NCBI RefSeq assembly: GCF_900107135.1
Contig: NZ_FNOV01000004.1
Location: 62,001-126,000 of the forward strand
Direction of reading: 5' to 3'
Source: Hymenobacter psychrophilus
GTDB lineage: Bacteria > Bacteroidota > Bacteroidia > Cytophagales > Hymenobacteraceae
DNA: 64,000 nt
Under the pieces are notes generated by a model, which was given only the letters and a program-made list of their open reading frames with translations, did no database searches and had not been told where the DNA came from. Below, piece by piece: positions 5,676 to 9,353 of the stretch; position 1 is the stretch's first letter; every line of letters starts with the position of its first letter. A program made the position numbers and the translations under genes.

Positions 5676-6320
5676 TTAGAGCTTGCGCACCAGCAGCAAG
5701 CCGTCGCGCAGGGGCAACAGCACGTTTTCCACCCGCACGTCGGCCTGCACTTTCGCATTGAAGGCCCGCACGGCGTGCGTGTCCTTGTCGGCGGACTTCA
5801 CGGCGTGGAATGGCAATACCTTGCCATTCCACAATACGTTGTCAATCAGCAAAAAGCCCCCTGGCCGCACTTGGGGCAGCACCAGTTCATAGTAGGTGTC
5901 GTTGTTAATTTTGTCGGCGTCGATGAACACTAAATCCCAGGTTTCGGCCAGCGCGGGCACCAGCTGCCGGGCGTCGCCGATGTGCAGCTGAATCCGGTCT
6001 TCCAGGCCCGCCTCGGCCACGTAGCGCCCGATACGGCCCGCCAGCTCAGGGTTCTGCTCCACGGTGTGCAACAGTCCGTCCGGAGTCAGCCCTTCGGCCA
6101 GGCACAGGGCCGAGTAGCCGGTGAAGGTGCCCAGCTCCAGTACCCGCCGCGGCTGCACCATATGGCTCAGCATGCTCAAAAGCCGCCCCTGCGCGTGCCC
6201 CGACAACATGCGGGCGTGCAGCACCTGCACGTGGGTTTCGCGGTTGAGGCGGGCGAGCAGCGCGCTTTCGGGGCTGGTGTGGTCGTCGGCGTAGCGCTGG
6301 GCGTCGTCGGGGGAGTACAT
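5676..6320 (-). CDS. Class I SAM-dependent O-methyltransferase (caffeoyl-CoA type)
   Basis: The 214-residue cytosolic enzyme has the length and motifs of the cation-dependent O-methyltransferase family. The SAM-binding motif RVLELGTFTGYSALCLAEGL lies near residue 50, and the metal/substrate segment DLVFIDADKINNDTYYE near residue 125. A later LIDNVLWNGKV matches the family's conserved DNxLWxG block. Such enzymes methylate catechol-like small molecules, but the natural substrate in this lineage is not known. Its start lies 8 bases after the stop of the SRA-HNH endonuclease gene on the same strand, so the two are probably co-transcribed. Nothing in the protein suggests DNA methylation. Confidence 0.88.
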   Translation of the reverse strand: MYSPDDAQRYADDHTSPESALLARLNRETHVQVLHARMLSGHAQGRLLSMLSHMVQPRRVLELGTFTGYSALCLAEGLTPDGLLHTVEQNPELAGRIGRYVAEAGLEDRIQLHIGDARQLVPALAETWDLVFIDADKINNDTYYELVLPQVRPGGFLLIDNVLWNGKVLPFHAVKSADKDTHAVRAFNAKVQADVRVENVLLPLRDGLLLVRKL

Positions 6321-6328
6321 AAGATGCG

Positions 6329-7219
6329 TTAGAACAAGGTAGGCGCCGAGTGCGGCTGGTAGATGCGGCGGCGGTGGTAATGCAGGTGCAGCGGGTTGAC
6401 CTCGTGGGCCGGAGCCAGGGTCAGGCGGCCCGGCTGGCCTCGCAACGTCCCATCATCGTTCACCGACCAACTGCCCCGGTCGAAAGTTAGGTGGTGGTTT
6501 GGGCACAGGCACAGCAGATTGTCGAGCTTGTCGGGCCCGTGGTGCGGGCCGCCTAGGCCCCGAATGTGGGCCGCTTCGGCGTAGGGCCCGGAGGGCGTAG
6601 GCAACCGGGCCGCGCACACCTGGCAGCTGAAATCGTAGAGTTCCTTCACGATCCGCATCAGGCGCGTATCGCGCACTAATCGGTTGGTTAAGGCCAGTTG
6701 GCGCGGCGTTGGCTCATACGCCACCGCTGGCTCCTGCACCAGTGTCGTTGCCGAATCTAATGCGCTTTCTGCCGCTATCATTTCCAGCCGAAACTGCCAG
6801 ATGAGATGACCCGAGCGCCCCATTTGCGCCGCTGAACGGGTAACCAGATACAGCCCGGCGTACTGGTAAAAGGGAGTTTTACCCTGCCATACCTTCCGAA
6901 TAACGCGCACCGGCGTTTGCTGCTCGAAGCTGAGCTGCAGGGCTAGGTTGCCGCCCTGCAACTGTTGGTCGGCCACCTGCCGGCCCTCCTGGTTGCCGCC
7001 CTCGCCGGTGTATAGTATCACCGAGCCCAAATCCAGGTCGTCCTCGTAGCCGCCCGACAGCACAATAGCCTCCGCCGGGTTGCCTTTGAGGCTGGCAATG
7101 CCCTTAACAGAGTCCCGGTGCAGCCCCGCGGCTTTCACGTCCAGCCGGTTCAAAAACTCGTGCCCTGGCTCGATGCCCGCAACTGAGCCAAGATGAAGAG
7201 GCACCGGACGAGTAGGCAT
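6329..7219 (-). CDS. SRA (YDG)-HNH endonuclease, putative modification-dependent restriction enzyme
   Basis: The 296-residue protein joins an N-terminal SRA/YDG domain (about residues 5-150) to a C-terminal HNH nuclease (about 190-275). SRA hallmarks are VLSGGYEDDLDLGS followed by ILYTGEGGNQ and the AGLYLV strand, closely following the layout of eukaryotic UHRF1 SRA domains. The nuclease shows a CQVC knuckle, AAHIRGLGGPHHG, and CLCPNHHLTFDRG with the paired histidines of the beta-beta-alpha-metal fold. Proteins of this architecture bind DNA carrying 5-methylcytosine or hydroxymethylcytosine and cut it (type IV-like restriction). That activity is inferred here from the family. It lies 98 bases downstream of a stand-alone SRA gene and 8 bases upstream of an O-methyltransferase. 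Confidence 0.88.
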   Translation of the reverse strand: MPTRPVPLHLGSVAGIEPGHEFLNRLDVKAAGLHRDSVKGIASLKGNPAEAIVLSGGYEDDLDLGSVILYTGEGGNQEGRQVADQQLQGGNLALQLSFEQQTPVRVIRKVWQGKTPFYQYAGLYLVTRSAAQMGRSGHLIWQFRLEMIAAESALDSATTLVQEPAVAYEPTPRQLALTNRLVRDTRLMRIVKELYDFSCQVCAARLPTPSGPYAEAAHIRGLGGPHHGPDKLDNLLCLCPNHHLTFDRGSWSVNDDGTLRGQPGRLTLAPAHEVNPLHLHYHRRRIYQPHSAPTLF

Positions 7220-7316
7220 CAGAGAATCGGAGTGGAGTGAGCGGAAGACCAGTACGGTAGTTGGCCCACGGCAAACCTACTAGCATGCGGTACAAAAGCC
7301 AAGCAACTCTTCCTTA

Positions 7317-7751
7317 TTACTCGGGCACCAAGCGAAACTTCCAGACCAGAAAGCCCGCTTTGCCGGCCTCATACACCGCTGCCACCACCCGGTACAACCC
7401 TTCGTAGCGGTAGCCGTGGCCCGAACCAACCGTAATCCGCCGAAAAACCCGCACCGGGCGGCCGGTTTCGAGGCTTTTGTTGAGGTACAGATTCCGACCG
7501 CTCATCTCCTGGTGGGCCGTTTGCCGGCCGGTGCGCGGGTCGCGGCCGCCGCTGCCCGAGTACGTCAGATCATCCTCCCGGAAGTCGTCGTCGGCGTACT
7601 GGTCGGCCAGAATGATGGATTCCGCGCCTTCTTGGGCTGAGCCGCTCACACCCGTGCGGGTGGGCCGGTGCAGCCCCGCCCGGCTTAGTGCCAGCCGGTT
7701 ATCCAGCACATCGCCCGGCCGGTAGTAGCTAACGTGGCCGAAGTGGGGCAT
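7317..7751 (-). CDS. Stand-alone SRA (YDG) domain protein
   Basis: From the ATG at 7751 the protein is 144 residues and is essentially a single SRA domain. Visible blocks are HRPTRTGVSG, ESIILADQYADDDF, LTYSGSGGRDPRTGRQ, and the final strands YRYEGLYRVVAA and GFLVWKFRLVPE. Upstream in-frame codons back to 7859 fall inside an intergenic inverted repeat and lack SRA character, so 7751 is the better start. No nuclease domain follows the stop: the 96 bases before the SRA-HNH gene do not encode an HNH in any frame. The protein is probably a modified-base reader without its own catalytic site. It could be a paralogue of the adjacent SRA-HNH gene, a partner, or a decayed fusion. Its role is not established. 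Confidence 0.8.
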   Translation of the reverse strand: MPHFGHVSYYRPGDVLDNRLALSRAGLHRPTRTGVSGSAQEGAESIILADQYADDDFREDDLTYSGSGGRDPRTGRQTAHQEMSGRNLYLNKSLETGRPVRVFRRITVGSGHGYRYEGLYRVVAAVYEAGKAGFLVWKFRLVPE

Positions 7752-7772
7752 GCGGTGAGATGGTGATTTGGT

Positions 7773-7870
7773 GAAATGGTGAGTTGACGGTCCGCTGGTC
7801 CTGTCGGCGTGGTAGGGGCAGCTTGTGCAAGTGGCGCAATCAGGCCCCTGAAACGTCAACTCACCATCTC
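7773..7870. repeat. Inverted repeat, family 2 (GGTGA arms), copy 1
   Basis: Exact 13-bp arms lie at 7776-7788 (ATGGTGAGTTGAC) and 7855-7867 (GTCAACTCACCAT), extended by further GGTGA units on the left. The core contains GCAAGTGGCGCAATCAGGCC, also found at 16860-16945. The element fills the space between the M16 peptidase stop and the start of the stand-alone SRA gene. Confidence 0.7.
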
Positions 7871-7872
7871 AA

Positions 7873-9105
7873 CTACTCCGGCACGTATTGAAGTACGCTC
7901 AGGTTGTCGTCGGTGAGGATTTCGTTGGCCATTTCCAGCAGCTCGGGGGCCGTTATGCGGCGGATGCGGTCGAAGATTTCGTTGATGGCTTCCACGCGGC
8001 CCAGGTCGAGGGTGCTTTTGGCCAGCAGCTGCATCAGGCCGCTGTTGCTTTCTTCGGCCATGGCCAGCTGGCCCATCAGCTGCTCTTTGGCCGTGTGTAG
8101 CTGCGAGGTGCCCAGGGTTTGCTCACGCAGGCGCTTGAGCTCCTTCTGCACCAGCGAAACGGTGCGGTTTACCTGCTTTTTCTCGGTGCCGAAATAAATG
8201 CCGAACAGGCCCGTGTCGGTGTAGGGCGAGTAAGTGGCGTCGATGGTGTACACGAGGCCGTACTTTTCGCGCACGCCCAGGTTAAGGCGCGAGTTCATGC
8301 CGGGGCCGCCGAGCAGGTTGCTGAGCAAAAAGAACGGAATCCGTCGCTCATCGTGCAACGCGTAGGCGGGCCCGCCGATGAGGCAGTGGGCCTGCGTGAT
8401 GGGTTTGCGCTCCAGCCGCTCCAAGCGCTGGTAGCCGCTGAACCCCAGCCGGGGCCGCGCCCCCAGCCGGGCCGGTAGCGGGGCCAGGTACTTATCGGCC
8501 AGACGCTTCACCTCCTTGAAAGGCAGATTGCTTACCGAGCTGAATACCACCCGGTCGGTGCGCACGTTGTCGGCCAGGAACTGGTGAAAATCGGCCTGCT
8601 GAAAGCCCGACACGCTTTCGCGGGTTCCGAGGATGTTGTGGCCCAGCGTGTGGCGGGCAAATACCACGTCGTCGAAGTCGTCGATAATGGCGTCTTCGGG
8701 CGCGTCATGGTACATGGCCATTTCCTCCAGAATCACGCCGCGCTCCTTCTCAATTTCCTTTTCGGGGAAAGTGGAGTTAAACGTGAGGTCGGTCAGCAGC
8801 TCGAAGGCCCGCTCGAAGTGGGTGCTCAGCAGCGAGGCGTAGAAGCAAATCTTCTCCTTAGTAGTATAGGCGTTCAGCTCGCCGCCCACCGTTTCGAGGC
8901 GGTTGAGGATGTGGAAGCTCTTGCGCTTGTGGGTGCCCTTGAAGGCCATGTGCTCCCAGAAGTGCGCCAGCCCGAGCTGGTGGGGCTTTTCGTCGCGCGA
9001 GCCAATATCGAGCAGAAAGCCGCAGTGGGCAATTTTGGTGTGCGGAACCTGCTTATGCAGCACCCGGATTCCGTTGGGCAACTCGTACAGGTCGTAATCA
9101 GTCAT
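7873..9105 (-). CDS. M16 family (insulinase-type) zinc peptidase
   Basis: The 410-residue protein carries the inverted zinc motif HFWEH near residue 45, with LNAYTTKEKICFYASLL downstream supplying the third ligand region. The second half (AHCLIGGPAY, GGPGMNSRLNLGVREKYGLVY) is the non-catalytic M16 repeat. No signal peptide is seen, so it is probably cytoplasmic; family members cut small or partly unfolded peptides. The start at 9105 (MTDYDLYELPNGIRV) is preferred because the longer frame reads through a palindromic repeat. In addition, a TATCTTTG promoter element at 9207-9214 would start transcription downstream of the longer start. The 3' end abuts the family-2 repeat. Confidence 0.9.
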   Translation of the reverse strand: MTDYDLYELPNGIRVLHKQVPHTKIAHCGFLLDIGSRDEKPHQLGLAHFWEHMAFKGTHKRKSFHILNRLETVGGELNAYTTKEKICFYASLLSTHFERAFELLTDLTFNSTFPEKEIEKERGVILEEMAMYHDAPEDAIIDDFDDVVFARHTLGHNILGTRESVSGFQQADFHQFLADNVRTDRVVFSSVSNLPFKEVKRLADKYLAPLPARLGARPRLGFSGYQRLERLERKPITQAHCLIGGPAYALHDERRIPFFLLSNLLGGPGMNSRLNLGVREKYGLVYTIDATYSPYTDTGLFGIYFGTEKKQVNRTVSLVQKELKRLREQTLGTSQLHTAKEQLMGQLAMAEESNSGLMQLLAKSTLDLGRVEAINEIFDRIRRITAPELLEMANEILTDDNLSVLQYVPE

Positions 9106-9206
9106 TTCGTAGGGTCTGGGAAGCTTAGAGTGCCGGGAGACTCGGACTTTGTATAAGTTACTCCCTGTCCCGGCCTGGTATAACCACGCCAGCGCGTGGT
9201 AGGTTG

Positions 9207-9214
9207 CAAAGATA
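9207..9214 (-). promoter_or_regulatory. Putative -7 element TATCTTTG for the M16 peptidase
   Basis: On the minus strand TATCTTTG matches TAnnTTTG and lies about 100 bases before the ATG at 9105. It supports the shorter M16 start. Confidence 0.45.
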
Positions 9215-9249
9215 CGTTGAGGTGAGATGGTGAAATAGGTAAACAGGCC

Positions 9250-9353
9250 GTCATTCTGAGCGGAGCGAAGAATCTCTACCACTTCGTTGCAGGCGTCAGG
9301 AGTAGCATTGTGGTAGAGATTCTTCGACTACGCTCCGCTCCGCTCAGAATGAC
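9250..9353. repeat. REP-like palindrome, family 1
   Basis: The left arm at 9250-9282 (GTCATTCTGAGCGGAGCGAA and on) pairs with the right arm at 9310-9353. The right arm carries an 11-base insertion (an extra GGAGCGTAGTC-like unit when read in complement). The right end overlaps the last codons of the neighbouring glycosyltransferase gene (stop at 9344). Confidence 0.75.

Follow-up and report, generated by a model that had tools for sequence, protein, structure and literature searches.

The stand-alone SRA gene described here (S) appears from its sequence to be a near-core gene specifying a nuclease-free, predicted reader of modified cytosine with a plug residue specific to its class. It lies in a 64,000-nucleotide stretch of Hymenobacter psychrophilus DNA (contig NZ_FNOV01000004.1, positions 62,001 to 126,000), hereafter the window, where it stands next to H, a gene for a TagI-like SRA-HNH endonuclease. 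An earlier note had pointed to this arrangement and taken S for a possible partner of the nuclease; the observation was right and the interpretation mostly was not. Since most of the Hymenobacter genomes examined keep S, usually without H, S probably has its own function. On balance we favour the view that S is an independent near-core Hymenobacter gene, a nuclease-free modified-cytosine reader leaning to a binding-only role on modified foreign DNA, in which it would overlap with the SRA-HNH enzymes.

Both open reading frames, one with and one without an HNH domain, were confirmed head to tail on the minus strand of the window. S (7317..7751; ATG at 7751, stop ending at 7317) codes for 144 amino acids, in which no second domain was found, and H (6329..7219) for 296 amino acids. 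The slot which they share is bordered, on the same strand, by a gene for an M16 peptidase upstream (7873..9282; Pfam Peptidase_M16) and by one for an O-methyltransferase downstream (OMT, 5676..6320; Pfam Methyltransf_3, and by synteny). The spacers measure 121 bp between M16 and S, 97 bp between S and H, and 8 bp between H and OMT. The SRA parts of S and H are just 40% identical over 139 amino acids, from which it follows that they diverged long ago and, in agreement with the earlier note, are not recent duplicates. The motif layout said to be shared by the two (G-Y-E-D/A-D-D) stands except at the first motif of S, which reads Q-Y-A-D-D-D and lacks the G-Y. The M16-S spacer (7752..7872, minus strand) holds an inverted repeat at 7757-7870, consisting of GAGATGGTGAGTTGACG and its near-complement, which recurs in the genome; partial matches were located at 14 other places and it therefore looks like an interspersed, REP-like element.

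Pfam analysis of S revealed a SAD_SRA domain (E 1e-38, residues 3-142) and no other family at E 0.001; no HNH match was found by Pfam in this 144 amino acid protein. Against PF02182 it scored 132.9 bits (cut-off 30.7) and covered positions 1-143 of the 148 in the profile, making it a full-length member of the family. An AlphaFold2 model (mean pLDDT 93.5, pTM 0.87) was submitted to Foldseek, the best match being TagI (6ghs; TM 0.86 by query length). The model resembles the SRA domains of TagI, KRYPTONITE, UHRF1 and SUVH5, the 50 matches listed having TM values of 0.79-0.91 by query length. TagI is also the closest solved structure by sequence, for S and H alike. In the viral library, S was matched at E 0.001 or better only by an SRA protein of a haloarchaeal virus and by one protein of a mimivirus.

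The roles of Tyr55, Tyr67 and Asp58 in the base pocket of TagI are described in PMC6212794. The residues of S which correspond to them are Tyr52 (codon 7596..7598), forming one wall of the pocket, Tyr64 (7560..7562), forming the second wall, and Asp55 (7587..7589), the carboxylate for the cytosine edge; all three codons are on the minus strand. In the 101 stand-alone rows from the genus, Tyr52 and Asp55 were each found in 100, the exception being a truncated copy in genome G025, and Tyr64 in 99, the exceptions being the same truncated copy and one cut by a contig end. Copies that are not truncated or contig-cut all keep the whole pocket of two tyrosines and a carboxylate. The NKR finger of UHRF1-type hemimethyl-CpG readers is absent from S, which has GRQ at the aligned place.

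H contains SAD_SRA (E 5.9e-41, residues 9-148) and HNH_2 (E 1.3e-10, residues 199-254) domains. Its residues 11-286 align to TagI (6ghs) through both domains with an E-value of 1e-43, the Cys, His and Asn residues of the HNH part falling at matching positions. With an N-terminal SRA and a C-terminal HNH in a single chain, H has the TagI-type architecture, by which it is an ordinary member of this group and a predicted modification-dependent endonuclease. Assignment to the phosphorothioate-dependent restriction enzymes (NF045808) was rejected, the score being 49.5 bits against a cut-off of 180 and confined to the HNH part.

The distribution of the two genes was studied in 120 genomes of the genus (code g1), 111 of which were matched by a PF02182 search. 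S only was present in 77 genomes (the truncated copy of G025 included), H followed by S in 16, S followed by H in 7, H only in 11, and neither in 9, four of the last being fragmented or under-complete drafts (G093, G097, G099 and G108). In total, S is carried by 100 of the 120 genomes, 77 of them without H, and H by 34, 11 of them without S. The earlier note had proposed to look for the pair in other genomes, and S plus H does recur in 22 genus genomes beyond the window; the association between the genes is negative, with an odds ratio of 0.24 (Fisher p 0.006, 120 genomes), or 0.13 (p 0.0004) when ten fragmented or truncated genomes are excluded. An obligate S-H pair, or two-component SRA/SRA-HNH system, was rejected on this odds ratio and on the genomes that carry one gene without the other. 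On a locus tree built from M16 and OMT, the state of H requires 27 changes and that of S 16. Among 20 independent pairs differing in H, S differed in the opposite direction in 8.2 and in the same direction in 1.1 (median p 0.039, range 0.012-0.18). The state of the slot differs in 30 of 86 close pairs (M16 identity >0.965). We take the negative association to indicate independence and possible overlap rather than proven redundancy, and it may be partly mechanical, one allele replacing another. S is dispensable: in the clade formed by G075, G076 and G102 there is no SRA gene, and M16 and OMT lie about 20 bp apart.

A total of 112 loci were compared, namely regions from 110 genomes, the window, and one extra contig from G107. 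All except one (111/112) occupy a single chromosomal slot beside M16 and/or OMT. M16 lies upstream of the SRA gene or genes in 110; of the other two, L164 starts at a contig end and has OMT downstream, and L139 lies elsewhere. Where both sides are visible the slot holds S alone (75 loci), H alone (11), H then S (15) or S then H, the order of the window (7); H has been gained or lost on either side of S across the genus. The rows closest to the window on the locus tree are G003, G087, G079, G035 and G114. The slot is older than its contents, because in two related genera M16 adjoins OMT without any SRA gene (4/4 genomes). In the sister group g96 all eight SRA-bearing genomes hold the gene in the slot (7 S, 1 H), and in genus g2 six SRA-HNH genes have no M16 and no OMT in the 12.5 kb retrieved. 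SRA genes are scarce elsewhere, occurring in 9 of 395 genomes of a phylum sample (three of the nine in the genus) and 18 of 194 of an order sample (twelve in the genus). The sole genus S outside the slot is that of L139, from G096, a draft of about 680 contigs. It lies directly behind genes matching SbcC (AAA_23, SbcC_Walker_B) and SbcD (Metallophos, SbcD_C) on the same strand (L139 938-6246), so that one S does have a nuclease-type neighbour, a single case which we regard as a lead for recruitment.

Rates of substitution point to purifying selection on S. The median dN/dS was 0.15 for S, 0.108 for OMT and 0.047 for M16, computed over 120 pairs, the closest among 374 close ones and not mutually independent. 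SRA pieces of fewer than 120 amino acids, namely those of G025 (truncated) and G107 (cut by a contig end), were left out of the trees and of the rate work. The median dS ratio to M16 was 1.58 for S (71 pairs), 1.39 for the flanking glycosyltransferase GT9 (75 pairs) and 1.15 for OMT, with outliers for S reaching 5.5; the descent of S is mostly vertical, with occasional exchange. At E 1e-5, S-like proteins were found on one of 72,556 plasmids and none of 50,697 phages. Copies of S beside an upstream H gave a median dN/dS of 0.29 (12 disjoint pairs) versus 0.18 (28 pairs; p 0.011). In these same pairs M16 and OMT rise too, so no claim of relaxed selection is made.

The residue that sets S apart from the nuclease-fused proteins is Arg32 (codon 7656..7658, minus strand). 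It occupies the place of Gln35 in TagI, the thumb residue that fills the space of the flipped base (PMC6212794). Arg was found here in 107 of 109 stand-alone SRAs, the exceptions being G027 and G209 with Gln, and in none of 46 HNH-fused ones. The SRA of G145 (L159_S), a stand-alone protein with a Gln thumb and its pocket Asp changed to Asn, was left out of this count. The 46 fused rows possess Gln (30), Tyr (8), Ile (2), Val (2), Met (2), Gly (1) or Ala (1). From its translation, the H of the window has Val38 at this position (codon 7106..7108, minus strand) and not the TagI-type Gln; since the residue varies within the family, Gln is not a strict mark of SRA-HNH proteins.

Four HNH-fused SRAs (L055, L124, L134 and L156), all with a Gln thumb, are nested in the stand-alone clade, and a single clade of all genus and g96 H was rejected (p-AU 0.014; 141 rows, discriminating columns removed). 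Four HNH-less SRAs (G060, G061, G063 and G085) carry Arg and lie closer to the H rows. The first tree placed them within the H clade, but after removal of the discriminating columns 2 changes of the H label suffice for the genus set, so that they may instead sit next to that clade; it is the nesting of the four H in the S clade alone that has the backing of the AU test. A search with S-type sequences retained 80 of 135 relatives, and 48 of the 80 named loci were from Hymenobacter; one of the two scan patterns itself selects an Arg thumb, and L267 was matched by that pattern alone. The 32 named loci outside Hymenobacter comprise six stand-alone SRAs (5 Arg, 1 Gln), 25 HNH fusions (0 Arg; two of them missed by the motif search and assigned HNH by eye) and one SRA with a long NTPase-like extension (Gln). 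In Spirosomataceae, whose genomes partly overlap this set, five further HNH fusions have Gln and four stand-alone SRAs have Arg, with a sixth HNH case lacking a readable thumb. That a single thumb residue seems to divide stand-alone from nuclease-fused SRAs is striking, and statistically unproven on the tree because there are just three to four independent switches of architecture. We tentatively suggest, as a possibility, that the Arg-thumb stand-alone SRAs constitute a distinct class of bacterial modified-cytosine readers without a fused or dedicated nuclease, which might for instance interfere with modified foreign DNA through binding alone, near-core in a whole genus, and switching the plug residue with gain or loss of the nuclease. 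An SRA in Actinosynnema (L255, 2935 onward), with a Gln thumb, runs in frame into some 560 amino acids that hold a P-loop motif recognized by eye.

C5-methyltransferases were searched for with the single family PF00145. They were found in 45 of the 120 genus genomes, being present in 29 of 77 with S only, 10 of 23 with S and H, 4 of 11 with H only and 2 of 9 with neither; on the locus tree no association of these enzymes with S or H was found. Because just 45 of 120 genomes have such an enzyme, S cannot be a reader of genus-wide host 5mC, and this candidate was rejected, and some S could read host DNA in the genomes that do. As most hosts are without a C5-methyltransferase, the ligand is likelier to be on incoming DNA than to be a host mark. 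The genome of the window has a C5-methyltransferase-like gene (G000:C9:1859-3022, a 427-aa open frame) alongside its SRA-HNH gene.

Candidate effectors for S were also considered. Relatives of the HNH part were found at E 1e-5 in 51 of 120 genomes, 34 of these matches being the fused genes (E <1e-36), among which those of G035 and G117 include one stop. After the fused genes comes a relative in G031:C11 (E 9e-20), and the remainder do not reach 1e-13. A split HNH nuclease acting in trans was rejected, since the close HNH relatives are fused genes only and none is kept in S-only genomes. In 37 loci there is more than 500 bp to spare between M16 and OMT; the part of their ORFs that was scanned by Pfam revealed no nuclease family. 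In four loci of Fibrisoma and Fibrella a stand-alone Arg-thumb SRA is followed directly by a gene of cytidine-deaminase fold (L250 3429-4157, L251 3420-4148, L252 3443-4150 and L253 3456-4202), whose product has an N-terminus that looks signal-peptide-like by eye. This deaminase was rejected as a general partner of S: of the 12 carriers among 200 Spirosomataceae genomes, 4 have it beside an SRA and 8 have no SRA at all, no deaminase motif was found within 1.5 kb of a fifth stand-alone SRA (G816), and no match was obtained at E 1e-5 in the six Hymenobacter genomes tried.

In the mechanism that we favour, S would flip a 5mC- or 5hmC-type cytosine into the pocket of Tyr52, Asp55 and Tyr64, and Arg32 would fill the vacated space from the minor-groove side, where TagI-type nucleases mostly have Gln. 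Because a catalytic domain is absent and no conserved nuclease partner was found, we infer that S acts by occupying its site or by recruiting. Its role would be binding-only against, or in the handling of, modified foreign DNA, and would overlap with that of SRA-HNH; H would have entered and left the slot repeatedly, in some cases next to S and in others in its place. S might alternatively be a house-keeping reader of the host chromosome, directed at modified or damaged cytosine or serving replication, repair or regulation, which was domesticated from an old SRA-HNH and has no part in defence. Such a gene could well show what S shows, namely near-core presence on the chromosome, mainly vertical descent, near absence from plasmids and no match in the phage set; roughly one in three S-only loci has S 30 bp or less from M16, and the SbcC/SbcD-type neighbours in G096 also fit. 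We nevertheless consider this rather unlikely, as the 75 genomes without PF00145 leave no genus-wide 5mC to read, the negative association of S with SRA-HNH hints that it overlaps with a restriction enzyme, and a whole small clade is missing S.

The partnership put forward in the earlier note, in which S would set the specificity of H, protect host sites or antagonise cleavage, is improbable. It draws on the adjacency and common direction of S and H in 23 of 120 genomes and on the short spacers (12-36 bp) in 15 of the 16 loci with H upstream; the many genomes with one gene and not the other, and the negative association, argue the opposite. C5-methyltransferases are about equally frequent among genomes having H with and without S, and the protector model in particular is disfavoured because the tracking of these enzymes by S or H, which it predicts, is not seen on the tree. 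Hardly credible is the reading of S as what is left of a decaying SRA-HNH after loss of the nuclease, for which the earlier note had named truncation with loss of the base-flipping residues as the sign. One truncated copy (G025) and the position of the HNH-less SRAs of G060, G061, G063 and G085 nearer the H rows are in its favour. It is contradicted by the dN/dS of S, which is also low within those four genomes (0.08-0.14), and by conservation of the pocket, and S forms an old, separate, genus-wide clade.

Bacterial SRA domains are presented as targeting modules of restriction enzymes (PMC6212794, PMC3874153, PMC7641849, PMC7461809). Among the TagI-type SRA-HNH proteins (TagI, ScoA3IV, TbiR51I), TagI is matched by H in both domains and by S in the SRA fold and the Tyr and Asp of the pocket, but S is without HNH and has Arg in place of Gln35, and the H of the window has Val. 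The eukaryotic UHRF1/UHRF2 and SUVH readers resemble S in having an SRA without a nuclease and with conserved pocket residues; theirs, however, are embedded in multidomain proteins, whereas S consists of 144 amino acids alone. In addition to lacking the NKR finger, S differs in its thumb, which in the sequence alignments is Arg as against Gln in SUVH5 and Val in UHRF1 (Val446). The nearest parallel in concept is provided by the stand-alone EVE proteins of prokaryotes, single-domain PUA-fold readers of modified bases apart from nucleases; in the account of PMC7641849 these occur with toxin-antitoxin or restriction operons, whereas none was found in the slot of S. The McrB specificity domain likewise flips the modified base, Tyr41 of McrB-N occupying the space left, although by what PMC3874153 describes as a different base-flipping fold; the Tyr thumb of the second H lineage may act in the same way. 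The titles and abstract openings listed by full-text searches of an open-access library named no work on stand-alone SRA proteins of bacteria or on SRA in Hymenobacter. A nuclease-free SRA kept by most species of the genus, mostly without a methyltransferase to make its ligand, raises the question of what function is left to a reader lacking an effector. The locus offers a natural test set, with one slot in which closely related species carry S, H, both genes or none, and a single residue parting the two classes.

The slot also receives other genes. Of the 37 loci with more than 500 bp left over, 19 hold a DUF4184-like membrane protein, as determined by Pfam on the copies from L065 (5000-5773), L107 (5130-5942), L108 (5290-6174) and L168 (691-1497); it is found as well in the slot of G032, a genome without SRA. 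Pfam analysis of 15 other slot ORFs revealed a PAS sensor kinase, KaiC, KaiB, an aldo/keto reductase, curlin repeats and weak hydrolase/thioesterase matches, with seven belonging to no family. In L074 (1598-5719) a four-gene insert on the opposite strand codes for a PAS sensor kinase, KaiC and two KaiB-like proteins, three of these ORFs having been assigned by Pfam, and ORFs similar to these in size and likeness were observed in L072, L150 and L158.
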